A stretch of DNA of 32,340 nucleotides, from positions 1 to 32,340 of the forward strand of contig PMYL01000022.1 in NCBI GenBank assembly GCA_003170825.1. Direction: 5' to 3'. Within the stretch, counting starts at the first letter, position 1; every line of letters begins with the position of its first letter. The notes below the pieces were generated by a model. That model saw only the letters and a program-made list of their open reading frames with translations, searched no databases and had not been told where the DNA came from. This DNA is from Acidobacteriaceae bacterium (GTDB taxonomy: Bacteria > Acidobacteriota > Terriglobia > Terriglobales > Acidobacteriaceae). The translations under genes and the position numbers were made by a program. This document shows positions 20,630 through 30,812 of the stretch, piece after piece.

Positions 20630-22078
20630 TCAGTCGAAAATCTCCTCAGGAATGGACTTCCCGCTTAAAATCGAGTCTCCATTTCGCCCGGATGGAATTT
20701 TGGCGAGGCACAGGAACGCTGCGGAGGACTCTCGTAGAGCCCAGCCGGCGATGAGCAGACTGGGCGCGAGGGTGGGTTCGGCGTCTCCCAGCGCGGCGAG
20801 CGTGGTGCATCGAACCTGCTGGCCGGGCTGAGCGACGCGTGAGACGACGGCGCAGGGGAAGTCGGAAGGAAGTCCTTCGTCGAGCCATTGCTGAGCTAGC
20901 AAGCTCAGGTCACGGCCAGGCATATAGACCACCCGCGTCGCCTCTTCTCGTTGGGGCAGCGGCGCGCACCACGATCGGCTGTCCGGTTGCGACTGCGCGT
21001 GGTGGCCGGTGGAGAAGATCACGTTGGACGCGCTGTTGCGGCTGGTGAGCGAGCAGCCAACGGCAGCGGCGGCGGCGAAGGCGGCGGTGATTCCGGGGAC
21101 GATCTGGAAAGGCACGCCCGCTTCGGCGAGGGCAGCCATCTCTTCGGCGGCGCGGCCGAAGATGAGCGGGTCGCCGCTCTTGAGGCGAACCACACTGCGA
21201 TTCAGGCGGGCGTGTTCGATCATCAACTGGTTAATTTCGTCCTGGGTGATGGTCTTGCTGCCGCAGCGTTTGCCCACGTTGAGAACTTCAGCCGAGGGTG
21301 AGGCCAGTTCGAGAATCGCCTGCGGAACAAGGTCGTCGTGGAGGACGACGCCGGCGGTCTGGATCAGACGCAACGCCTTGACGGTGAGCAGGTCGGGGTC
21401 TCCGGGACCGGCTCCGACCAGGTACACCGTTTGTGCGGAAGCGCGCGGATCTTCCTCAACCTCTTGCAGGAACCCTTCGGAAAGACCGGGGATTGCCGCA
21501 TGGGAATTGGATGGGAAGACCGGGCGCTGGGCCAGTTGATGCAGCAAAAGTTTGCGGTCCTCGTTGCGGGGAAGCGTTTTGAGAATCTCGCGGCGTAGTT
21601 GACCCAGATTTTGAAGCCACGGACCGAGATCTTCAGGCAATAGCTTGTCGATCTCGCGGCGCAGGAGCTGGGCGAAGGCGGGGCTTTCACCGGCAGTGGA
21701 GATGGCGATCTGAAGGTCGCCGCGGCTGACCATCGAGCCGAAAAAGAAGTCGCAGTTGGGGATATCGTCCACGCTGTTGCAAAGGATGCCCAGTTCGACC
21801 GATCCGCGATAGACAGCCGCGTTGACGGCTGGCGAATCAGTGGCAGCGATGACCAGGAAGTTGCCGTCAAGGTCGGAAAGCTCGAAGCGGCGATCGATCC
21901 ATTCGAGTTTGCCTTCCGCAGCCAGTTGCCGGATTTCAGGGCGCGCATCGGGGGCGATGACGCGGAGGCGAAGGCCTGTCTTGAGCAGGCTGCCGATCTT
22001 GTCCAAAGCGATAGTGCCCGCGCCTACCAGGAGGCAGCGGCGGCCATCGAGTTTGAGGAAGATCGGCAGAAGGCTCAT
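20630..22078 (-). CDS. cysG: Siroheme synthase (precorrin-2 dehydrogenase/ferrochelatase fused to uroporphyrinogen-III methyltransferase)
   Basis: 482 residues from the ATG at 22078; the frame is open further upstream but overlaps the sulfite reductase. It makes siroheme, the cofactor of the neighbouring reductase. Residues 1-165: NAD-binding LVGAGTIALDKIGSLLKTG (17-35) and Asp104 in NSVDD, at the same position as the catalytic Asp of enterobacterial CysG; STAGESPAFAQLLR at 127-140. Residues 216-450: methyltransferase with VYLVGAGPGDPDLLTVKAL, VVRLKSGDPLIFGR and QIVPGITAAFAAAA. Domain order is as in CysG. The last 27 residues (from FLCLAKIPSGRNG) extend past the usual end. It lies 10 bases after the reductase stop, so the two form one operon, presumably under the same cysteine leader. 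Confidence 0.92.
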   Translation of the reverse strand: MSLLPIFLKLDGRRCLLVGAGTIALDKIGSLLKTGLRLRVIAPDARPEIRQLAAEGKLEWIDRRFELSDLDGNFLVIAATDSPAVNAAVYRGSVELGILCNSVDDIPNCDFFFGSMVSRGDLQIAISTAGESPAFAQLLRREIDKLLPEDLGPWLQNLGQLRREILKTLPRNEDRKLLLHQLAQRPVFPSNSHAAIPGLSEGFLQEVEEDPRASAQTVYLVGAGPGDPDLLTVKALRLIQTAGVVLHDDLVPQAILELASPSAEVLNVGKRCGSKTITQDEINQLMIEHARLNRSVVRLKSGDPLIFGRAAEEMAALAEAGVPFQIVPGITAAFAAAAAVGCSLTSRNSASNVIFSTGHHAQSQPDSRSWCAPLPQREEATRVVYMPGRDLSLLAQQWLDEGLPSDFPCAVVSRVAQPGQQVRCTTLAALGDAEPTLAPSLLIAGWALRESSAAFLCLAKIPSGRNGDSILSGKSIPEEIFD

Positions 22079-22088
22079 GGTATTTTCT

Positions 22089-23786
22089 CTAATCGCCCAC
22101 GCCGTGCGGCACGCGGCCGGTGGGAGCGTCGCGCTCGACGGCGGCAAGAACCTCGCCGGCCAGAAAGGCGCGCAGTTCGTCGTTCGAATGGCGGCCGAAC
22201 CAGGCGCGCAGGTTCTCCTCCGGCTCGCGGCCGGCGAGATAGTGGCGCAGCAGGCGTTCGATCGCTTCCGGCACCAACTGGGCGAGGCAGCGATAACCCA
22301 CCGGGCGGGCGATTGCGGCGTGCTGGCCCACCGCTCCACCGAGGCAGAAGTAGTAGGCGTCGGTGAGCTTGCCCTCGTGCTTGATCTTCTTCCCCTCGAT
22401 GCCGATGTCTGCAATCCAATGCTGGCCGCAACTGTTGGGGCAGCCGGTGACGTGGAGCTTGAGCTGCTGGTCGAACTCGGGCAGCCGCTCTTCCAGTTCG
22501 TCCACCACCCAGCGGGTAAAGCCCTTGGTCTCCGTGATGGCGAGCTTGCAGAACTCCGAGCCGGTGCAGGCGACGGCGCCGCGCCAGAAGAACGAGCCAT
22601 CGACCTGGAGGCCGCTCTGGCCGAGTTCGCGGGCGAGTTCCGCCGTCTTGCTGTTGGGTATATCGATGAACAGCAGGTTTTGCGAGACGGTGGCGCGGAG
22701 CGCGCCGCTGCCGAAGCGCTCGGCGAGTTCGGCTGCCGCTTCCAACTGCTCGCCGGTCAGGCGCCCGCGAAGGACGGATGCCCCCACGTAGCTCAAGCCC
22801 GGCTGGCGCTGCGGATGGATTCCGGCGTGGTCGCGGAGGATTTCATCGGGTACTTGTTCCGGCACACCGGGCAGCAACTTGAAATCGAGGCGCGACTGAA
22901 GTTCAGCCAGGAAGCTGTCAGCTGTCCAACCCTCCTTCATGAACAGATACTTCAGCCGGGCGCGGTCGCGACTCTCGCGCAGGCCCTGCTGGTCGCGGAA
23001 GATCTCGGTGACGGCGCGCGCCACACGGACGGCCTGGTCCGGGAGAATGAAGGCGTCAAGGCGAACGGCGAGATGCGGTTCGTTGGACAAGCCTCCTCCC
23101 ACCCGGAGCGAGAAGCCGACTTGGCCGTCGTGTTTCACCGCGGTGAGCGCGATATCGTTGATCTCCGGATAGGAGCACCAGGAGGAGCAGCCGGTGGCGG
23201 AGATTTTGAATTTGCGGGGCAGGTTGTAGAACTCCGGATTTGCCTTGAGCAGTTGCGAAATCTCGGCGGCGAGCGGAGAGGCGTCGATGAGCTCATCGGC
23301 GGCCACGCCGGCCAGAGGGCAGCCGGTCACGTTGCGCACCACATCGCCGCAGGCGCCTTTGGGCGAGAGTCCAATGGCGTCGAGCGCATCCACAATTTCG
23401 GGAAGCGATTCGATGGTGAGCCAGTGAAGCTGAATGTTCTGGCGGACGGTGATGTCGGCGAGGTTGCGTCCGTACTTCCGCGCCAGGCCGCCGATGACGC
23501 GAAGCTGGCCGGCGGAGAGAATCCCGTTGGGGACGCCGATGCGCATCATGAAGTAATCGGAAGCCAGGCCTTCGCCGCCTTTGCCGCCGGTGACGCCCAT
23601 GCCGTCACCCTGGGTGTAGACGCCCCACCATTTGAAATAAGTGGCAGCCCACTCGGGGACCACGCTCGCGCGGCCCTGGCGGGCAAAGGCGCGCACCTCG
23701 TCGAACGCCTCCCACGGGTTCTTCTCGCGCTTGAGGCGTTCCGCACGTTGGGCCTTGGTCTCTTTTTCCGGAATAATTTGAGCCAT
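22089..23786 (-). CDS. sir: Ferredoxin-type siroheme sulfite (or nitrite) reductase
   Basis: 565 residues from the ATG at 23786 (MAQIIPEKETKAQ) with gaggga just upstream; the open frame extends to 23969 but that part is the leader region. Six-electron reduction of sulfite to sulfide in the cytoplasm. Two ferredoxin-like halves each followed by a siroheme/4Fe-4S domain: ITVRQNIQLHW and VRNVTGCPLAG in the first, SYVGASVLRGRL and ATVSQNLLFIDIP in the second. The cluster and siroheme ligands are complete: Cys407 and Cys413 in ACTGSEFCK, Cys449 and Cys453 in GCPNSCG. Sequence alone does not fully separate sulfite from nitrite reductases; the cysteine-codon leader, cysG and the nearby cysDNH favour sulfite. 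Confidence 0.88.
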   Translation of the reverse strand: MAQIIPEKETKAQRAERLKREKNPWEAFDEVRAFARQGRASVVPEWAATYFKWWGVYTQGDGMGVTGGKGGEGLASDYFMMRIGVPNGILSAGQLRVIGGLARKYGRNLADITVRQNIQLHWLTIESLPEIVDALDAIGLSPKGACGDVVRNVTGCPLAGVAADELIDASPLAAEISQLLKANPEFYNLPRKFKISATGCSSWCSYPEINDIALTAVKHDGQVGFSLRVGGGLSNEPHLAVRLDAFILPDQAVRVARAVTEIFRDQQGLRESRDRARLKYLFMKEGWTADSFLAELQSRLDFKLLPGVPEQVPDEILRDHAGIHPQRQPGLSYVGASVLRGRLTGEQLEAAAELAERFGSGALRATVSQNLLFIDIPNSKTAELARELGQSGLQVDGSFFWRGAVACTGSEFCKLAITETKGFTRWVVDELEERLPEFDQQLKLHVTGCPNSCGQHWIADIGIEGKKIKHEGKLTDAYYFCLGGAVGQHAAIARPVGYRCLAQLVPEAIERLLRHYLAGREPEENLRAWFGRHSNDELRAFLAGEVLAAVERDAPTGRVPHGVGD

Positions 23787-23798
23787 TTTCCCTCTTTC

Positions 23799-23840
23799 AA
23801 AAAACAGAAAGCCCGCGACAGCTATGGCTGTATCGCGGGC
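23799..23840 (-). terminator. Intrinsic terminator in the sulfite reductase leader (attenuator)
   Basis: In the minus-strand RNA: gcccgcga (23840-23833), a 2-nt bulge, cagc, loop cata, gctg, tcgcgggc (23818-23811), then tttctgtttttt (23810-23799). This is a 12-bp stem plus U-run, placed between the leader ORF and the ribosome-binding site, only about 13 bases before the reductase ATG. A terminator in a 5' leader implies conditional read-through. The tacagc of its left side is complementary to gctgta, which covers the third Cys codon of the leader ORF, a possible antiterminator pairing. Confidence 0.8.
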
Positions 23841-23880
23841 ATTTGGAAACCGTGGATTCGATCTGACTTTTAGACCCAGG

Positions 23881-23934
23881 TCACCTGTGCGCGCGAAGCG
23901 GCGTACAGCGGCGACAACAGGGCTGACCTTGCAT
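23881..23934 (-). CDS. Cysteine-rich leader peptide of the sulfite reductase operon (MQGQPCCRRCTPLRAHR)
   Basis: A 17-codon ORF, minus strand, with three Cys codons in five (TGT TGT CGC CGC TGT) and a TGA stop. The A of its ATG is 7 bases past the -10 box, so the mRNA is predicted to start at the start codon (leaderless). The ORF lies in an imperfect hairpin: ggtca-gc-cctgt (23928-23917) pairs with acaggtgacc (23888-23879), which includes the stop codon. Slow translation of Cys codons would change which structure forms before the downstream terminator. Known parallels are the polycysteine leaderless ORFs of mycobacteria that attenuate sulfur genes. Regulation is inferred, not shown. Confidence 0.75.
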   Translation of the reverse strand: MQGQPCCRRCTPLRAHR

Positions 23935-23940
23935 AAAGAG

Positions 23941-23969
23941 ATAGTAGGGGCGGGCCGCGCGAAAGTCAA
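23941..23969 (-). promoter_or_regulatory. Sigma-70 promoter of the sulfite reductase-cysG operon
   Basis: -35 ttgact (23969-23964), exactly 17 bases, -10 tactat (23946-23941) on the minus strand. Both boxes are near consensus. The predicted start falls on or next to the A of the leader ATG at 23934. Confidence 0.75.
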
Positions 23970-24017
23970 GTCGGCCTCAGCGCAAACCTCCGCCCAGAAA
24001 ATTCCGGGATCAGTCTG

Positions 24018-24046
24018 TTGACAAGAATCCGAATGTTGTTTAAGTT
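24018..24046 (+). promoter_or_regulatory. Sigma-70 promoter of the porin unit, divergent from the sulfite reductase promoter
   Basis: Consensus -35 ttgaca (24018-24023), 17 bases, -10 taagtt (24041-24046). Its -35 is about 50 bases from that of the minus-strand promoter, back to back, so one regulator could bind between them. Confidence 0.6.
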
Positions 24047-24069
24047 GGAAAAACAGAGTTGCTCACGAG

Positions 24070-24117
24070 ATGCAAACCTTCTTCGTCAAAATCGCGTGTT
24101 GTTGCTGTCTCCGCTAG
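24070..24117 (+). CDS. Cysteine-rich leader peptide 1 of the porin unit (MQTFFVKIACCCCLR)
   Basis: 15 codons with four consecutive Cys codons (24097-24108), two codons before the end. It starts 24 bases after the -10 box, with only a weak gag before the ATG. The codons just before the Cys run (AAA ATC GCG with the preceding base context, 24088-24096) form the left arm of a hairpin whose right arm lies after the stop. A ribosome stalled on the Cys run would cover that arm. Confidence 0.75.
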   Translation: MQTFFVKIACCCCLR

Positions 24118-24148
24118 CGCCCGCTGGCCTGTCCGCGATTTTGTCTTT
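24088..24148 (+). terminator. Terminator-like hairpin overlapping the CCCC leader
   Basis: aaaatcgcg (24088-24096) pairs perfectly with cgcgatttt (24134-24142), followed by gtcttt. The Cys codons and the stop codon lie in the loop, with an inner stem gctagc/gctggc at 24113-24128. It can form only if no ribosome sits on the Cys run, so low Cys-tRNA would favour read-through. The U-run is short and interrupted. Confidence 0.6.
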
Positions 24149-24242
24149 CCCAAATTCAAGCGCTTCACGTTGATTTTTCGAGTACTGGATGCCCCTGTTC
24201 ACGCCCATCTACACAGGTTTTATTGAGGACTCTGCCCGCTCA

Positions 24243-24302
24243 ATGAGCAGGCCGGGAACAGCGCATTGCTCGTGTTGTTATTGTCTGCCCACCTGTCGAT
24301 AA
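24243..24302 (+). CDS. Cysteine-rich leader peptide 2 of the porin unit (MSRPGTAHCSCCYCLPTCR)
   Basis: 19 codons, five of them Cys (positions 9, 11, 12, 14, 18), between the first leader and the porin. The ATG lies in a short inverted repeat (gctcaatgagc, 24238-24248) and gagca (24245-24249) can pair with tgctc (24267-24271) at the first Cys codon. A weak promoter-like pair (ttcacg, 17 bases, tattga) precedes it. It could be a second attenuator in series or serve a second transcript. A small hairpin follows (24327-24332/24336-24341). Confidence 0.65.
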   Translation: MSRPGTAHCSCCYCLPTCR

Positions 24303-24379
24303 AGGTCTGTCTCCCCATGCGGGCCAGGGACCTACGGTCCTAACTCATCCAGCTCCCAAGATTCAAAGGAGAATCCAAA

Positions 24380-25882
24380 GTGTCAAAAGCTCTTGATGCT
24401 TTTATGTCCGCTTCTCTGCGCCTGTTGCCGCTATCGATCTCTGCTATGCTTTTTTTGTTTGCTATAGCGGACGGCCGGCCCTTGGCCGCGCAGGACGACA
24501 TCACCACGCAACACGGGACGCCCGGGTTCAATGGCGTATTCATGACCGGTCCGGCCTCGAACCCGTTGAGCTTCCTGAACGGCCCGGCCTGGCGTACTAC
24601 CGCCAACCCGGCGCCCTATGACTTCCACGACTTTGCCCCGGCGACCTATCTTGACGAAAAGCTGCCCCATTGGATCGATCTGCAGGCCGAGGAGCGGTTC
24701 CGGTATGAGGCGCACGACAATAATAACTTCAAAGCGGGTGCCAATGACTCCTACCTGTTGAACCGCTTCCGGTTCAAGGTGGATCTGCATACGCCCAGTT
24801 GGCTGCGGATTACGGCGCAGGTGCAGGACGCCCGTGCGGGCTTCCAAAACCCGCCGCTCGGCCCGCCGAACACGGTTCGCTGGGATCTGAAGCTGGCTTA
24901 CGCCGAGGTCGGCGCGCCCGACAAGCACTGGTTCAGCCTGCGCGTGGGCCGACAGCTCATCAACTACAACAATACGATCATCGCCAACTCCGAGTGGCGC
25001 AACCAGGCCCGTTCCTACGATGCGGCGGTGCTGAACCTGAATGCGAAGCGCGAGCACCTGGGCATTTTCGCTGCCTCGCCTTTGGTGCCGCAGGCCTATG
25101 GCGTGAGCCCGCATCAGGAAGGCAACAACATCTACGGAGCCTACGGCCGCATCGATGACCTGGTGCCGCACTCGAACCTTGAGCCATTCTTCCTGTGGCG
25201 CGTGCAGCCGGCAGAGGTCGTCGAACCGGCCGCCGCCAAGACCACCGGGAAGGAGAACGAGAAGGCTGGTGGCGTGCGCTTCAAGGCGCAAGCCCACACG
25301 GCGCTCGATTACGGGGGGGAGCTGATCTTCGAAGGCGGCACAGTGGGACCACAAAGCATCGGCGCCTGGGCGGCGCAGGGAGGCGCGGCATACCAGTTCC
25401 TCGATGCAGTGGCCAAGCCGCGCGTCTTTACCCAGTACGACTACGCCTCGGGCAACAGCGATCCGGCAACTAACGGAAAGCACTCCACCTTCGATACGAT
25501 CGAACCGACAGCCCACGACCGCTTTGGAATCACTGACCTGTTCGGCTGGCAGAACATTGAATCGGTGCGCGTGGGAGCCACCGTTGAGCCCCACCGGCGG
25601 CTCACCTTCACGGTGCAGGGGCTGGACTTTTGGGCGGCTTCGGCGCTGGACTCGATCTACAACACTTCGGGCAGTTCGATCGTGTACAACAAGACCGCCC
25701 ACGGCCGCCATGTGGGCGCGGAAATCGATAGCTACTCCTGGTATGAACTCAATAAGCACTTCAACCTGGGCGGCGGCATCGGCTACTTCGGCGGTGGCCA
25801 GTTCCTGACGAATGTGTCAACCAGCCACTCGTACACGACCTACTACTTTGCGCTGAACTTCAAAGACAACGGAAAGAAGTAG
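24380..25882 (+). CDS. Outer-membrane porin of the alginate-export family
   Basis: 500 residues from a GTG at 24380 with a strong aaggag at 24366-24371 (8-base spacing). Signal peptide to about residue 37 (RPLAAQ). The rest is beta-barrel-like with alternating aromatics: WIDLQAEERFRYEAHDNNNF, LNRFRFKVDLHTPSWLRITAQVQDAR, WFSLRVGRQLINYNNTIIANSEWRN, and a typical end TTYYFALNFKDNGKK, as in Alginate_exp-type porins. In this family substrates are often unknown. Placement behind two cysteine-rich leader ORFs and divergent from the sulfite reductase suggests uptake of sulfate or another sulfur source across the outer membrane; that is inference from regulation. The C-terminus is complete. Confidence 0.82.
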   Translation: MSKALDAFMSASLRLLPLSISAMLFLFAIADGRPLAAQDDITTQHGTPGFNGVFMTGPASNPLSFLNGPAWRTTANPAPYDFHDFAPATYLDEKLPHWIDLQAEERFRYEAHDNNNFKAGANDSYLLNRFRFKVDLHTPSWLRITAQVQDARAGFQNPPLGPPNTVRWDLKLAYAEVGAPDKHWFSLRVGRQLINYNNTIIANSEWRNQARSYDAAVLNLNAKREHLGIFAASPLVPQAYGVSPHQEGNNIYGAYGRIDDLVPHSNLEPFFLWRVQPAEVVEPAAAKTTGKENEKAGGVRFKAQAHTALDYGGELIFEGGTVGPQSIGAWAAQGGAAYQFLDAVAKPRVFTQYDYASGNSDPATNGKHSTFDTIEPTAHDRFGITDLFGWQNIESVRVGATVEPHRRLTFTVQGLDFWAASALDSIYNTSGSSIVYNKTAHGRHVGAEIDSYSWYELNKHFNLGGGIGYFGGGQFLTNVSTSHSYTTYYFALNFKDNGKK

Positions 25883-25921
25883 CCAACGCCGTACTGGAAC
25901 TCCGGGACGAGGCTGGTGTGA

Positions 25922-26203
25922 TGGACCATCGCGCTGTTCGCATCCAGCCTTGTCCTCTTTGCATCGATTTTGGGCCGCTATCCCAGCGACTTTGGCCAAA
26001 TGCCCATCGGCTCCGGCCGTGCGCTCTTGGGAAACGCAACTCCGATTGCGCAGCAGATTGCGGGCGGATGGAACCTGAGCGGCATCGCGACCCTGCAGAC
26101 CGGTCCGTCCGTAGAGGCGGCGCTTTCACCCACGGCAGACATAATGACCGCAACGGCAACCACATCGCGGCAGCTCCAGTTCGCCTTGAAGTTTCTCTTC
26201 TAA
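25922..26203 (+). pseudogene. Remnant of an Oar-like TonB-dependent receptor
   Basis: The open segment contains GRALLGNATPIAQQIAGGWNLSGIATLQTGPS and ends SRQLQFALKFLF. Both are standard near-C-terminal pieces of the large carboxypeptidase-regulatory TonB receptors of Acidobacteriota, but here they are joined with the intervening 100 or more residues missing, and there is no start or plug. Confidence 0.65.
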
Positions 26204-26332
26204 GGAACCTCTGATTAAGTTCCACTACGCATTGAGCTTTCCCTCAGGGGCTAAAGCCCGCGTTGATTTTGCGCCATTTCTGGCACGGCTAAAGCCGTGC
26301 CCTTTCAAAACGTCAACTAAATCAGAGGTTCC
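26204..26332. repeat. MITE-like element, 129 bp, with 18-bp terminal inverted repeats
   Basis: ggaacctctgattaagtt (26204-26221) is repeated inverted at 26315-26332 with one mismatch. Inside are two hairpins with the same taaa loop: gggc/gccc (26248-26259) and ggcacggc/gccgtgcc (26282-26301). No coding potential. The ends look like IS termini, so a non-autonomous element moved by a related transposase is likely. It begins directly after the pseudogene stop. Confidence 0.7.
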
Positions 26333-26378
26333 CTCAGGCGTACATCGAGCGAAGAAAGACTGGCGGGGCAGGCCGGAG

Positions 26379-26407
26379 TTGCGCTTGCCCCGGCATTTTG
26401 CTACTAT
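26379..26407 (+). promoter_or_regulatory. Promoter of the cysDNH operon
   Basis: -10 tactat (26402-26407) with extended TG (ttgctactat) and ttgcgc 17 bases upstream (26379-26384). The -10 is identical to that of the sulfite reductase promoter. The predicted start is about 26414, 4 bases before the leader ATG. Confidence 0.6.
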
Positions 26408-26417
26408 GGGCCTACAC

Positions 26418-26486
26418 ATGACGAGCGCTCCCCAAAGCCGGTTCTGTTGTTGCCTGTCGAAGATCTTCGACGGGTGTATTTTCTAG
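26418..26486 (+). CDS. Cysteine-rich leader peptide of the cysDNH operon
   Basis: 22 codons, starting MTSAPQSRF and continuing CCCLSKIFDGCIF; Cys at 10, 11, 12 (TGT TGT TGC, 26445-26453) and 20. An in-frame ATG at 26406 overlaps the -10 box, so 26418 is the start; the mRNA would begin at most a few bases before it. No ribosome-binding site, as expected for (nearly) leaderless translation. Fourth such ORF in the window, and in front of the sulfate-activation genes. Confidence 0.75.
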   Translation: MTSAPQSRFCCCLSKIFDGCIF

Positions 26487-26546
26487 TCTCTGATTTCCCT
26501 TCGCAATTCATCAGAAGACGCACCCGCGCTGAAAAGCCGGTGTGCG
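26456..26546 (+). promoter_or_regulatory. Alternative hairpins of the cysDNH leader
   Basis: Segments 1/2: perfect palindrome 26456-26471 (stem gtcgaa, loop gatc) starting 2 bases after the CCC codons. Segment 2 continues as cgggtg (26471-26476), complementary to cacccg in segment 3 (26521-26526). Segment 3 (cgcacccg, 26519-26526) can instead pair with segment 4 (cggtgtgcg, 26538-26546). Thus 1-2 plus 3-4, or 2-3, can form, the classic attenuator geometry: a ribosome on the CCC codons would cover segment 1 and free segment 2. No U-run follows segment 4, so the output step is unclear (Rho or another mechanism). Confidence 0.5.
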
Positions 26547-26595
26547 GACCCGCAGCATTGGCCCTCAGCGATTCAATTACTGAAAGAGGTCATAC

Positions 26596-27552
26596 ATGCC
26601 GGCCGCCGAAAGCGAGATTTCCCTGCCACCGCCGCCAACGAGCGCAACCGCTCCGCCGCGCCTGAGTCATCTGCGCCTGCTTGAGGCGGAGAGCATCCAC
26701 ATCCTGCGCGAAGTCGCCTCCGAGTTTGAGCGTCCTGTGATGCTGTACTCGATCGGCAAGGATTCCTCCGTCATGTTGCGGCTGGCGCAGAAGGCCTTCT
26801 ACCCCGGCCCGATTCCGTTTCCTCTGTTGCATGTGGACACCGGATTCAAGTTCGCGGAGATGCTCACTTTTCGCGATGCGATGGCCCGCTCCGCCGGGGC
26901 AGAGCTGCTCGTGTGGCGCAATGAAGGCGCCATAGCGGCGGGGACTAATCCCATCGTGCTCGACACCAAGCGCTGCTGCGGACTGCTCAAGACGCAGGCG
27001 CTGCTCGACGCGCTGCGGCACTACAACTTCGACGCGGCCTTCGGCGGCGCTCGCCGCGATGAAGAGAAGTCTCGCGCCAAAGAGCGCATCTACTCCTTCC
27101 GCGACAGCGCCGGGCAGTGGGACCCGAAGAACCAGCGCCCCGAGTTGTGGAATCTCTACAACGCGCGCATCCATCCCGGCGAGAGTATTCGCGTCTTCCC
27201 GCTTTCCAACTGGACGGAGATGGATGTCTGGCAATACATCCACGAGGAGAAAATCCCGGTCGTGGATCTCTATTTCGCAAAAGAGCGCCTAATGTATGTG
27301 CGTGGCGATGCGTTGCTTCCCATTGAGCAGGCATTTGTCGCGCGTCCCGGCGAGCAGCCGCAACTGGTCAAGTCGCGTCTGCGTTCGCTTGGATGCAGCC
27401 CATGCACGGGGGCCATTCGTTCCGATGCGGATACCATTCCCGCCATCATTGCGGAGCTGCTCTCCTTTCGCTCTTCTGAGCGCGCCAATCGCACCATTGA
27501 CCACGACCAGGAAGGCTCCATGGAGATCAAGAAGCGGGAGGGATATTTCTAG
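26596..27552 (+). CDS. cysD: Sulfate adenylyltransferase subunit 2
   Basis: 318 residues, ribosome-binding site gaggt about 7 bases before ATG. Makes adenosine 5'-phosphosulfate (APS) from ATP and sulfate together with the GTPase CysN. ATP-pyrophosphatase PP-loop at 52-59 (SIGKDSSV), then the family blocks [50 protein letters not shown] and [20 protein letters not shown], and the C-terminal [13 protein letters not shown]. It has about 20 extra N-terminal residues rich in Pro/Ala. First gene of a four-gene operon behind the CCC leader. Confidence 0.95.
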
Positions 27553-29277
27553 ATGGCCGCGCTCACGACTCCCAGTTTCTCCATCGATGAATTCCTGCAA
27601 CAGGAACGCGAGAAGGATCTGCTGCGCTTCTCGACCGCGGGCAGTGTGGATGACGGAAAGTCCACTCTGATCGGCCGCCTGCTCTACGACACGCAGTCGG
27701 TCTACGAAGATCAGGTGCGCTCCATCCAAGGCAAGGGAACAACCGCTCCCGGGCAGATCGATTTCGCCCTGCTCACCGATGGTCTCCGGGCGGAGCGCGA
27801 ACAGGGCATCACGATCGATGTGGCCTATCGTTACTTCTCCACGGCGCGGCGCAAGTTCATCATCGCGGATACGCCCGGTCACGAACAGTACACGCGCAAT
27901 ATGGTTACGGGGGCTTCGACGGCCGATGCGGCCGTGGTGCTGATTGACGCGAGCAAGGGTGTGCTCTTGCAGTCGCGCCGCCATGCCTACATCGCGTCGC
28001 TGCTGCGCGTGCGGCATGTACTGGTGGCCGTGAACAAAATGGATCTCATCGGCTACGATCAAGCTGCCTTCCGCGCAATTGAGCGCGATTTCAGTTTGCT
28101 GCTTGAACAGATTGCAGCCGACACCGGCAGTCCGGTCGAGTCTATTTTTGTCCCGGTCAGTGCGCTGGCCGGGGACAATATCGTTCATCGTTCCAAAGCC
28201 ATGCTATGGTACAGCGGACCCTCCCTGCTTGAGTTGCTTGAGGCGCTGCCATCGTCGCTTGACACGCGCGCCGAACCCTTTCGCTTTCCGGTACAGCGAG
28301 TTCTTCGACCTGACCACAGCTTTCGCGGCTTCGCCGGCCAAATTGCATCTGGAACAGTTCGCCCTGGAGACAGAGTGACCGTGCTTCCTTCCGGCAGAAG
28401 CGCGGAGGTCTCACGCATCGTCACCTACGATGGCGATCTTGCCGAGGCGTATGCGCCACTCTCCGTTACGCTGGTGCTGAACCGGGAACTCGACATCAGC
28501 CGCGGCGACCTCATCGTCTTAGCTGATGCGCCGGCAACTGTTGCCAAGAGCGTCAAGGCCGCATTGGTCTGGATGGATCGGCGTCCGCTCGAACTCCATC
28601 GCCGCTATCTGCTCAAGCACACAAGCCAGACCGCGCCTGCGTTTCTTTCATCGATCGAGCACCGCACCAACATCGGCACGTTCTCGCACGAACCCGCCGA
28701 GACGCTGGAGATGAACGGCATCGGCGTGGTGACCCTGAATCTGCTGCGGCCGATCGCGCTCGACCTTTACGGAGAAAATCGCGGCACCGGCGCTTTTATC
28801 CTGATTGACGCCGAAACCAACAGCACGGCCGCGGCGGGCATGATTACCACGGCGTCCAGCTATGAAACAGAGGGCAGCCACATCCATGCGGGCGCATGGG
28901 GACCGGTAACCGCCGGCGAAAGGGCCGCGCGCTGGGGGCACCGCGGCGGCGTTCTCGAACTGAGCGGACCCACGGAGCTGATTGACGCGATCGAGCGTTC
29001 TCTGTTTGCAGCCGGGGCCATATCCAATCGCATCGAAGCCGACGATGACGCCTTTCTCCTTCATCCCAGCCTGCTGGAAATCGTCACCGAGATGCAGATT
29101 CAATCCGGCCTGCTTGCTCTCGTTGTTCACGAAAACGATAGCGGCACGCTCATGGCGCGCGCGGAAGACCGGCAACTCACCCTCGACGCAAACGATCCAC
29201 TCAAGGCGGTCTCTGCCGTCCATCAGTTGTTGCACAGCACAGGCATCCTTATTTTTTTTGAAAAGGCGGATTTGTGA
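27553..29277 (+). CDS. cysN: Sulfate adenylyltransferase subunit 1 with a degenerate APS-kinase-like C-terminal domain
   Basis: 574 residues; its ATG follows the cysD stop with no gap. GTPase motifs: GSVDDGKSTL (30-39), DTPGHEQYTRNM (106-117), NKMD (161-164), VSAL (202-205). EF-Tu-like beta barrels to about residue 425. Residues 455-574 align by eye with APS kinase (CysC), as in CysNC fusions: WGHRGGVLELSG at the position of the usual GHR...W.TGLSG, but the P-loop GAGKST is replaced by PTELID, so kinase activity is not expected. The end LDANDPLKAVSAVHQLLHSTGI also matches the CysC end. With an APS-type CysH next door, APS kinase is not needed. Confidence 0.92.
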   Translation: MAALTTPSFSIDEFLQQEREKDLLRFSTAGSVDDGKSTLIGRLLYDTQSVYEDQVRSIQGKGTTAPGQIDFALLTDGLRAEREQGITIDVAYRYFSTARRKFIIADTPGHEQYTRNMVTGASTADAAVVLIDASKGVLLQSRRHAYIASLLRVRHVLVAVNKMDLIGYDQAAFRAIERDFSLLLEQIAADTGSPVESIFVPVSALAGDNIVHRSKAMLWYSGPSLLELLEALPSSLDTRAEPFRFPVQRVLRPDHSFRGFAGQIASGTVRPGDRVTVLPSGRSAEVSRIVTYDGDLAEAYAPLSVTLVLNRELDISRGDLIVLADAPATVAKSVKAALVWMDRRPLELHRRYLLKHTSQTAPAFLSSIEHRTNIGTFSHEPAETLEMNGIGVVTLNLLRPIALDLYGENRGTGAFILIDAETNSTAAAGMITTASSYETEGSHIHAGAWGPVTAGERAARWGHRGGVLELSGPTELIDAIERSLFAAGAISNRIEADDDAFLLHPSLLEIVTEMQIQSGLLALVVHENDSGTLMARAEDRQLTLDANDPLKAVSAVHQLLHSTGILIFFEKADL

Positions 29278-29975
29278 TGAGCGCAGTGGAAATACACGCT
29301 CAGGTGAATGCCAAGCTGGAACAGGTGCGCGCCATCCTTGCGCGCGAAATCACAGGCCAGCCGGATGTGTGCCTGACTTGCAGCTTTCAGGCGGAAGACG
29401 TGCTGCTGGCGAAGCTCGCAATCGAGTTGGATTCCAGTATCCCCATTCTTTTTCTCGACACGGGTTATCATTTTGCGGAGACCTATGCGTATCGGGATCA
29501 TCTTGCGCGCGAGTGGCGGCTTAACCTTATCAATCTGCTACCCGAAAAGACCGTAGCCGAGCAGGAGGCGGAGCACGGCCTGCTCTATCAATCGGCGCCT
29601 GACCAGTGCTGCAAACTGCGCAAGGTTGAGCCGCTCTTCAAGGCGCTTGCCGGGTACCGCGTCTGGCTTACCGGCCTGCGGCGCGAACAGGCAAAGAGCC
29701 GCGCGGCGCTGGAGGAAGAGGCTCTCTTCACGCTTCCCGGCGGAAAGCAGGTGCTGAAGCTGGCGCCGCTGGCTGCGTGGACAACGCGGGATGTCTGGTA
29801 CGCCTGCGAACAGCTCGCCATTCCGCTGCTTCCGCTCTATGCGCGTGGCTACTCCTCCATCGGCTGCGAGCCCTGTACTACGCTTCCGCTGGATCCAAAC
29901 GATCCGCGCTCGGGCCGCTGGGCCGGGCGCAAGGTTGAGTGCGGCATTCACATCGAGGCAGCGCCGTCGCAATAA
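29277..29975 (+). CDS. cysH: APS reductase (4Fe-4S phosphoadenylyl-sulfate reductase family)
   Basis: 232 residues from the ATG at 29277, which overlaps the cysN stop by one base (tgatg), so translation is probably coupled. Reduces APS to sulfite with thioredoxin. SFQAEDVLLAKL replaces the P-loop region; LFLDTGYHFAETY at 58-70; catalytic Cys222 in VECGIH near the C-terminus. Cys111-Cys112 (DQCCKLRKVEPL) and Cys197/Cys200 (GCEPC) are the four cluster ligands that mark APS-specific enzymes and are absent from PAPS-specific ones. This fits the inactive kinase domain of CysN. Confidence 0.93.
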   Translation: MSAVEIHAQVNAKLEQVRAILAREITGQPDVCLTCSFQAEDVLLAKLAIELDSSIPILFLDTGYHFAETYAYRDHLAREWRLNLINLLPEKTVAEQEAEHGLLYQSAPDQCCKLRKVEPLFKALAGYRVWLTGLRREQAKSRAALEEEALFTLPGGKQVLKLAPLAAWTTRDVWYACEQLAIPLLPLYARGYSSIGCEPCTTLPLDPNDPRSGRWAGRKVECGIHIEAAPSQ

Positions 29976-30005
29976 AACGGGCGCGCCGGAATTGAGGAAA
30001 CGGAA

Positions 30006-30812
30006 ATGCAATATCTCATTGGATTCATCATCGCTCTGTTTATTGCGTTCACCGGAGTTGGCGCCGGCACCGTCACCGTGCCGGTGCTGGTTTTGTTTCT
30101 TGGAGTGCCGGCACCGGTTGCCGTCGGCATCGGCTTGATGTTCGCCTCAGCGGTCAAATTGATTCTGGTGCCGGCGCAAATCCTTCGCCGCAACGTGGTT
30201 TGGCGGACGCTTGGATTCATGCTTCTGGGCGGCGCGCCCGGCGTCATCGTCGGGTCGCTATTTCTGAAACATCTGGTGAATGTTGGCTCTCAGAACATGC
30301 TCAACGCGATTCTTGGATTGATTCTGGTGAGTACGGCGGGTTGGCAGATATTCTTTTCCTTCCGTCCGATGAGAAAGAATCCGGACGCTCGGGATCGCAG
30401 CTCCCTGCTTTCATGGCTGATGCTCCCAGTAGGAGCCGAGGTCGGCTTCTCCTCCGCCGGAGCCGGCGCTCTGGGCTCGGCGGCGCTACTCAGCCTCACT
30501 GATTTAGCGCCCGCGCAAGTGGTCGGTACGGACATCGCCTTTGGCTTTGTCGTCTCACTCATTGGCAGTGGCGCGCATTGGTTCTCGCACGCCTCCAACC
30601 CAGATTTGCTCATTCATCTCATTGAAGGTGGCGTTGCCGGAGCCATTGTCGGAACCATCCTCAGCACCCGCATTCCGCGCCATCAGTTGCGCTTTGCCCT
30701 ATGGGTTTGGCTTCTCGTCCTTGGCGGCCAACTCCTCTTCAACAGCTATGAGGCATGGGCAACCCCCCATAAGCTGACAGTTAGCCAGTCTCAACCATTT
30801 CATCGAAACTAG
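30006..30812 (+). CDS. TSUP (TauE/SafE) family membrane permease
   Basis: 268 residues, gaggaaac before the ATG, 30 bases after cysH, last gene of the operon. Repeated hydrophobic helices with the family's Gly/Pro-rich pattern (FIALFIAFTGVGAGTVTVPVLVLFLG, LGFMLLGGAPGVIVGSL, and the second half VGAEVGFSSAGAGALGSAALLSL...GTDIAFGFVVSLIGSG), about eight membrane spans. TSUP proteins move sulfite, sulfonates, sulfate or other small anions. In this operon sulfate or sulfite transport is the natural reading; no ABC-type or SulP-type sulfate importer is present. Direction of transport cannot be told. Confidence 0.85.
   Translation: MQYLIGFIIALFIAFTGVGAGTVTVPVLVLFLGVPAPVAVGIGLMFASAVKLILVPAQILRRNVVWRTLGFMLLGGAPGVIVGSLFLKHLVNVGSQNMLNAILGLILVSTAGWQIFFSFRPMRKNPDARDRSSLLSWLMLPVGAEVGFSSAGAGALGSAALLSLTDLAPAQVVGTDIAFGFVVSLIGSGAHWFSHASNPDLLIHLIEGGVAGAIVGTILSTRIPRHQLRFALWVWLLVLGGQLLFNSYEAWATPHKLTVSQSQPFHRN

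Follow-up and report, generated by a model that had tools for sequence, protein, structure and literature searches.

Polycysteine leader ORFs predicted to sense cysteine in front of sulfur-assimilation genes of Acidobacteriaceae

Four polycysteine ORFs at a sulfur-assimilation locus

We analysed a stretch of 32,340 nt from an Acidobacteriaceae bacterium (GenBank assembly GCA_003170825.1, a draft genome of 3.49 Mb), which constitutes one whole contig (PMYL01000022.1, hereafter the window), and in particular four short open reading frames (ORFs) with clustered cysteine (Cys) codons that lie in front of its sulfite reductase gene cysI, a porin gene and the cysD unit. Pfam confirmed the identities that a first-pass annotation of this DNA had given to the neighbouring genes (sulfite reductase, CysG-type synthase, PF13372 porin, CysD, CysN, CysH and a TauE-type protein). 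The true start of the CysG-type ORF is probably near 22075, because its domains begin at residue 180. The genes and leader ORFs are as follows.

20630-22600, minus strand: CysG-type siroheme synthase, ORF as listed (PF13241, PF14824, PF00590)
22089-23786, minus strand: cysI, ferredoxin/siroheme-type sulfite reductase (PF01077, PF03460)
23881-23934, minus strand: cysI leader ORF, MQGQPCCRRCTPLRAHR, with Cys codons 6, 7 and 10 at 23919-23914 and 23907-23905
24070-24117, plus strand: porin leader 1 ORF, MQTFFVKIACCCCLR, with Cys codons at 24097-24108
24189-24302, plus strand: porin leader 2, 37 amino acids, MPLFTPIYTGFIEDSARSMSRPGTAHCSCCYCLPTCR, with a Cys cluster at residues 27-36 that includes CSCCYC
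24380-25882, plus strand: outer-membrane porin of the PF13372 (alginate export) family, by Pfam
26418-26486, plus strand: cysD leader ORF, MTSAPQSRFCCCLSKIFDGCIF, with Cys codons at 26445-26453 and 26475-26477
26596-30812, plus strand: cysD-cysN-cysH-TauE/TSUP unit, consisting of cysD (26596-27552, PF01507), cysN (27553-29277, PF00009), cysH (29274-29975, PF01507) and a TauE/TSUP exporter (30006-30812, PF01925)

The four ORFs had been described as lying outside larger genes, and all of them indeed fall in two intergenic stretches. Those with the runs CCRRC, CCCC and CCC occupy the positions first given to them; for the ORF with CSCCYC the end at 24302 stood, and the start moved from 24243 to 24189. 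The ATG at 24243 is internal to porin leader 2: orthologs keep the longer ORF from 24189, and the inner ATG is absent in L062, L063 and L064, i.e., in three of the five ATG-started versions (window's included). Scanning both strands of the whole window for ATG-started ORFs of at most 45 amino acids with three or more Cys within six residues returned 10 rows, or 8 once ORFs with a common stop were merged, namely the four reported ORFs and four similar ones within larger ORFs elsewhere in the window. The latter four would be the argument for regarding the Cys runs as chance ORFs. Against this, the two intergenic stretches (23787-24379 and 25883-26595, 1,306 bases in total) hold four Cys-run ORFs compared to 0.08 per dinucleotide shuffle, with 0 of 3,000 shuffles reaching four, which bears out the earlier judgement that chance was unlikely. 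Moreover, chance is already refuted by the conservation across relatives presented below, and we give it a negligible probability. The polycysteine ORFs are hence confirmed as genuine features. An Rfam scan of the window at gathering scores returned only two tRNAs; the leader regions match no described family, and a known Rfam element was ruled out as their identity.

The claim of a promoter-like sequence before each ORF held for the cysI leader, the cysD leader and porin leader 1, as listed here; for porin leader 2 no clear promoter was seen.

23941-23969, minus strand: promoter-like site of the cysI leader, TTGACT-17-TACTAT, the box ending 6 nt before the ATG
24018-24046, plus strand: promoter-like site of porin leader 1, TTGACA-17-TAAGTT, identified by eye
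26379-26407, plus strand: promoter-like site of the cysD leader, TTGCGC-17-TACTAT, identified by eye, the box ending 10 nt before the ATG and similar boxes occurring in relatives

Conservation of the cysI leader and its probable leaderless start

Upstream of cysI, relatives were screened for a short ATG-started ORF in which three or more Cys fall within six residues. Within the genus, 28 of 30 loci passed this filter, the window's own included, and in the two that failed (L007, L024) the leader at this position contains CC. Among 80 named cysI loci, 78 had sufficient upstream DNA and 72 of these carried such a leader. The misses comprise a GTG-started leader with CCGCC (L146), two loci with CC only (L156, L164), two at which cysI directly follows a cysH-like coding end that leaves no room for a leader (L162, L163), and L167, which is taken up below. 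Relatives with the gene and without the Cys run, which the first-pass annotation had named as its counter-case, are therefore few, with L167 among them. After pooling and deduplication of the Acidobacteriaceae loci, and with L113 and L166 dropped because their upstream DNA is cut, 84 distinct cysI upstream regions remained, 76 of which hold a Cys leader versus 1.1% of shuffles. When a TANNNT box just upstream was also required, the count was 59 of 84 versus 0.18% of shuffles, while the antisense strand of the same regions gave 5/84 without and 0/84 with the box.

The leader was also found in another family of the same order (f2), where all eight usable cysI regions (L193, which is cut, was dropped) have a Cys leader whose other residues are unrelated; seven pass the three-in-six filter, and the eighth (L191) has CC plus one further Cys. 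In a phylum-wide draw of 297 genomes, from which the 30 best cysI loci were read, 25 of the 27 Acidobacteriaceae rows passed (one of the rows is the window itself and two, from G031 and G068, belong to genomes already sampled), and at the two misses (L308, L309) cysI starts ~10 bases after the upstream gene. The other three of these 30 best loci, which come from other classes (L311-L313), showed no leader before cysI. In a genome of the same class and another family (G092), a leader and a terminator were read by eye before cysI at a weak covariance-model match (L276, E 3.6e-4). No leader was found upstream of two nitrite-reductase-like paralogs (L201, L202), as expected because the device would be sulfur-specific.

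The Cys patterns of the cysI leaders include CCRRC, CCACCC, CCGCC, CCMCMC and CRTCCHNC, and little else is common to the peptides, which is the pattern that would be expected from selection on Cys codons. The prediction that relatives keep the Cys runs while the other residues drift was thus borne out for the cysI leaders in two families of one order. In 53 of 76 cysI leaders, the distance from the end of the TANNNT box to the leader ATG is 6 or 7 nt, and a Shine-Dalgarno-like tetramer precedes just 2 of the 76 leaders versus 67 of the 76 cysI genes. We infer that the transcript probably begins at the ATG, i.e., that the leader is leaderless. A scan of the window's own genome for leaderless TGTTGT leaders gave 15 matches, compared to 17 in a reversed control. 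Three of the matches are in frame with a CC peptide: the cysI leader, the cysD leader and L185, the last of which we would attribute to chance. As a separate observation, dense TGYTGYTGY matches on one strand of contig C7 of genome G000 (49016-49399) probably represent a tandem repeat.

A terminator and a predicted, matched antiterminator before cysI

Between the leader and cysI, two further elements were located.

23802-23840, minus strand: intrinsic terminator, with hairpin 23811-23840 and U-rich tail 23802-23810
23827-23909, minus strand: predicted antiterminator, pairing the 3' part of the leader ORF and its stop region (~23874-23909) with ~23827-23857, which includes the 5' arm of the terminator

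In 82 of the 84 regions, leader and cysI are separated by a terminator hairpin with a U-rich tail, each of these at or below -15 kcal/mol, a value that the same finder reached in 7 of 840 shuffles. In an alignment of 38 of the 76 cysI leaders (A2), which we picked for similar length, the terminator stem pairs in 89.7% of cells and shows a covariation score of 0.058 versus 0.020 in shuffles, with 0 of 500 shuffles as high; one inner pair is altered on both sides in six rows. Across the 76 leaders, the 5' arm of the terminator pairs with the stop region and with the codons that follow the Cys run at a mean of -27.0 kcal/mol, compared to -23.3 kcal/mol with swapped partners (0 of 5,000 swapped sets as good as the own set) and to -18.6 kcal/mol with shuffled arms, which the own pairing surpassed in 76/76. 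For the window's copy the values are -27.3 kcal/mol for the antiterminator and -21.5 kcal/mol for the terminator stretch. When the transcript was folded up to the terminator apex, antiterminator pairing averaged 0.69 when a ribosome mask was placed on the first Cys codon versus 0.18 when it was placed on the stop codon, and the shift exceeded 0.2 in the expected direction in 68 of 76 leaders, with a reverse shift in none. By computation, cysI accordingly has clustered Cys codons, an intrinsic terminator and an antiterminator that depends on ribosome position, and the unit fits transcription attenuation because the intrinsic terminator and its complementary antiterminator are both present.

These data also bear on whether the ORFs might instead encode functional Cys-rich micropeptides, e.g., metal- or thiol-binding ones, rather than sensors. 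Cys being the most conserved residue would agree with such a role. However, the 76 cysI leaders represent 74 distinct peptides of 12 to 29 amino acids that share little apart from the Cys run and those residues whose codons make up the antiterminator, five leaders searched against NCBIfam gave no family match at E up to 1, and the ORFs are tightly coupled to the downstream terminator, all of which makes micropeptides very improbable.

Predicted RNA layouts at cysD and the porin

The following structures were drawn for the two other units.

26453-26543, plus strand: mutually exclusive stems of the cysD leader, 1:2 (26453-26461/26466-26474), 2:3 (26470-26492/26512-26527) and 3:4 (~26522-26527/26538-26543)
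24088-24142, plus strand: terminator-like stem around porin leader 1, with arms 24088-24096 (just before the Cys codons) and 24134-24142 and an inner stem 24113-24118/24123-24128

The cysD leader is present in all 22 usable members of the window's group (window included; L053 and L054, which are cut, were left out), each with CC and a later Cys within DGC, and 13 of the 22 pass the three-in-six filter. By eye, a TANNNT box precedes the ATG in 22/22, and from the box position this leader, too, would be leaderless. In the alignment of 21 rows (A1, from which L051 had been removed beforehand), stem 1:2 pairs in 95.2% of cells, 2:3 in 90.6% (31-54% for slid versions) and 3:4 in 73.4%; stems 1:2 and 2:3 overlap. 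Own duplexes were slightly better than swapped ones, with 10, 76 and 3 of 5,000 permutations reaching the own value for 1:2, 2:3 and 3:4, respectively. Pairing of 2:3 was 0.80 with the ribosome at the Cys codons versus 0.00 at the stop, partly since the mask covers the stem. A terminator-like site at 26451-26476 was set aside, as it is the 1:2 stem and relatives do not preserve its U-run. A second cysD group (L055-L060) has in 6/6 members a multi-Cys leader followed by a cysI-like terminator (five with CCACCC, L058 with CCCACCC). No leader was found before cysD of two genomes of the same class (L196, L198), and in L198 cysD follows a cysH-like coding end.

Porin leader 1 has three to five consecutive Cys in 8/8 close versions, among them that of the window and two copies from a single genome, and porin leader 2 is kept in seven of the eight, with its Cys residues near the end. 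The Cys codons of leader 1 come directly after AAAATCGCG, which pairs with CGCGATTTT past the stop codon, and this stem forms in 7/8 versions when the ribosome mask is at the stop codon. Neither porin leader has a leaderless appearance. A porin from genome G019, 57% identical, has a cysD-type leader instead, which would be independent support for regulon membership of the porin; another relative of the porin (L068, 61% identity) was found to have no such leader.

Probable ribosome-mediated attenuation and its alternatives

The interpretation in the first-pass annotation, that these are cysteine-sensing leaders, is supported by the comparative sequence data. We consider it likely that the conserved leader Cys codons sense cysteine by ribosome-mediated attenuation, most probably of transcription at cysI. 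At cysI, a shortage of Cys-tRNA would halt the ribosome on the Cys codons, whereupon the segment after the Cys run would capture the 5' arm of the terminator as an antiterminator and cysI-cysG would be read; with cysteine plentiful, the ribosome would reach the stop codon and cover that segment, and the terminator would form. At cysD the same logic is predicted to operate through stems 1:2, 2:3 and 3:4, with a final step that may be intrinsic, Rho-dependent or translational. At the porin, a ribosome halted on the CCCC of leader 1 would directly cover the 5' arm of the terminator-like stem. In combination, these would increase both sulfate reduction and uptake across the outer membrane under cysteine shortage.

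Several results weigh against this mechanism. At L167 the terminator is kept and the Cys run is lost. For the full cysI transcript at equilibrium the terminator is favoured both ways (means of 0.86 with the ribosome stalled and 0.96 with it at the stop), and for the window's own copy it is ~1.0 in both states; the decision must therefore be kinetic, taken during transcription, as it likewise is in classical attenuators. The cysD stems show covariation no higher than shuffles. Stem 3:4 barely switches (0.50 stalled versus 0.59 at the stop; 10 of 21 rows rise and three fall), and in the window's copy none of the 12 bases following it is a T, i.e., there is no U-run; in three close relatives of the window the U-run is weak. 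A conserved intrinsic terminator was sought for cysD and, from the pairing of 3:4 and these U-run data, found doubtful. At porin leader 1, it is the mask that brings the stem to zero when the ribosome is stalled, and 3/8 versions have a weak U-tract.

The cysD results feed the strongest rival in the window's own lineage, namely that the leaders sense cysteine and act on translation or via Rho, with the intrinsic hairpin not being the main step. The missing U-run after 3:4 in the window would agree with this, as would, as far as the accessible text of these sources goes, the citing of mycobacterial polycysteine leaders as translation attenuators (PMC13236596, PMC9031893) and an earlier suggestion of Rho for cys leaders (PMC1262725). 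At cysI, on the other hand, a terminator with a U-tract occurs in 82/84 regions versus 7/840 shuffles and the leader is matched in sequence to that terminator, so that for the leaders as a whole we regard action on translation or via Rho as unlikely, and retain transcription attenuation at cysI as the preferred reading.

Candidate targets in relatives and a possible regulon

Covariance models were used to look for further targets, with matches at E up to 0.1 in 62 of 99 genomes for the cysI attenuator and in 42 of 99 for the cysD leader. Partial matches are common among the weaker ones, and a selection of 18 stretches was read. The presence of a leader at such a match is not independent evidence, because the models contain Cys codons, while the identity of the gene is. 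Leaders were found before second-group cysD (L272, L273, L281, L283), a PF07396 porin (L267) and six large receptors (L268-L271, L274, L278). Two of these receptors were scanned and have PF25183 with CarboxypepD_reg, and the others resemble them at the N-terminus. A GTG-started leader, seen by eye, precedes a PF03601 protein (L266), which we take to be of the YeiH family. In genome G008 the Cys leader MKASSTRTCCRCLCSAGRVSVREI and a terminator-like hairpin stand before a 1-Cys peroxiredoxin (L275), which may connect cysteine shortage with peroxide defence, and in G005 the cysD-type leader MSRLYPSRACCRSNHFGGWPL stands before an open frame of 173 amino acids without a Pfam family (L277). Among the 18 stretches, L279 and L280 had no leader, and at L282 the Cys run is present and the gene is cut by the contig end.

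Two features of the window lie upstream of the cysD leader. The stretch 26042-26200 looks like what is left of the C-terminal portion of the large outer-membrane receptor behind a Cys leader in relatives: 58% identity to L269 was found over two short stretches, and PF25183 scored below its cut-off (E 0.0013). This remnant may be a decayed former regulon member. Between this remnant and the cysD leader promoter sits an 18-nt inverted repeat (26204-26332, arms 94% complementary with 93 nt between them), which looks like a small mobile or repeat element.

We lean, by a narrow margin of confidence, towards a broader reading in which Terriglobia have an RNA-based cysteine regulon built on a portable, mostly leaderless polycysteine leader with at least three RNA outputs, whose targets would also include porins, beta-barrel receptors and transporters, as a protein-free counterpart of CysB/CymR control. 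The three outputs would be antitermination at cysI and the second cysD group, a 1-2-3-4 switch at cysD, and direct ribosome cover at the porin. If true, cysteine would act through transcription attenuation on the scale of a regulon, with sensor amino acid, anatomy and target set gained for common soil bacteria, and the DNA signature of the Cys leader would tie unassigned outer-membrane receptors and porins to sulfur nutrition.

Comparison with known systems

In the classical trp and his attenuators of enterobacteria, sensor codons lie in a leader ORF, a ribosome at the stop codon covers the antiterminator, and a terminator follows. The cysI leader resembles these in all three respects. It differs in that the sensor is Cys, that translation probably starts from or near the RNA 5' end and that several RNA layouts would serve one regulon.

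For Acidobacteriota, no description of cysteine leaders was found in the titles and abstract beginnings of the literature searched, most subscription journals lying outside its coverage. In Actinobacteria, Cys-run leaders without obvious terminators were described in 2005 (PMC1262725), and the leaderless polycysteine small ORFs of M. smegmatis (Canestrari 2020) are cited as cysteine-responsive translation attenuators (PMC13236596, PMC9031893); the comparison is with the accessible parts of these sources. Like them, the leaders described here are short ORFs with consecutive Cys codons before sulfur genes, probably leaderless at cysI and cysD. The likeness to mycobacterial attenuators proposed in the first-pass annotation accordingly holds for the Cys-run leader itself and for the leaderless appearance at cysI and cysD, and not for the porin leaders, which lack that appearance, nor for cysI, which has an intrinsic terminator with a matched antiterminator where the actinobacterial leaders have no obvious terminator and an output cited as translational. 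The targets (cysI, cysD, porins, receptors) and the phylum differ as well. The device would thus work like the mycobacterial system in sensing, and we do not file it as a member because of the intrinsic terminator at cysI.

The uORFC-8-2 motif of Rhodobacterales, predicted upstream of cysS with tandem Cys codons and an intrinsic terminator (PMC8632094), is similar, as far as its accessible description goes, in having an upstream ORF with tandem Cys codons, a terminal U-run and a predicted ribosome-mediated transcription attenuation. That motif belongs to a cysteinyl-tRNA synthetase in Alphaproteobacteria, whereas the leaders described here precede sulfate assimilation and transport units and have a probable leaderless start. 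Cys leaders as such were already known, and what would be new here is the terminator/antiterminator anatomy at cysI, the target set, the occurrence in Acidobacteriota and the regulon scale.

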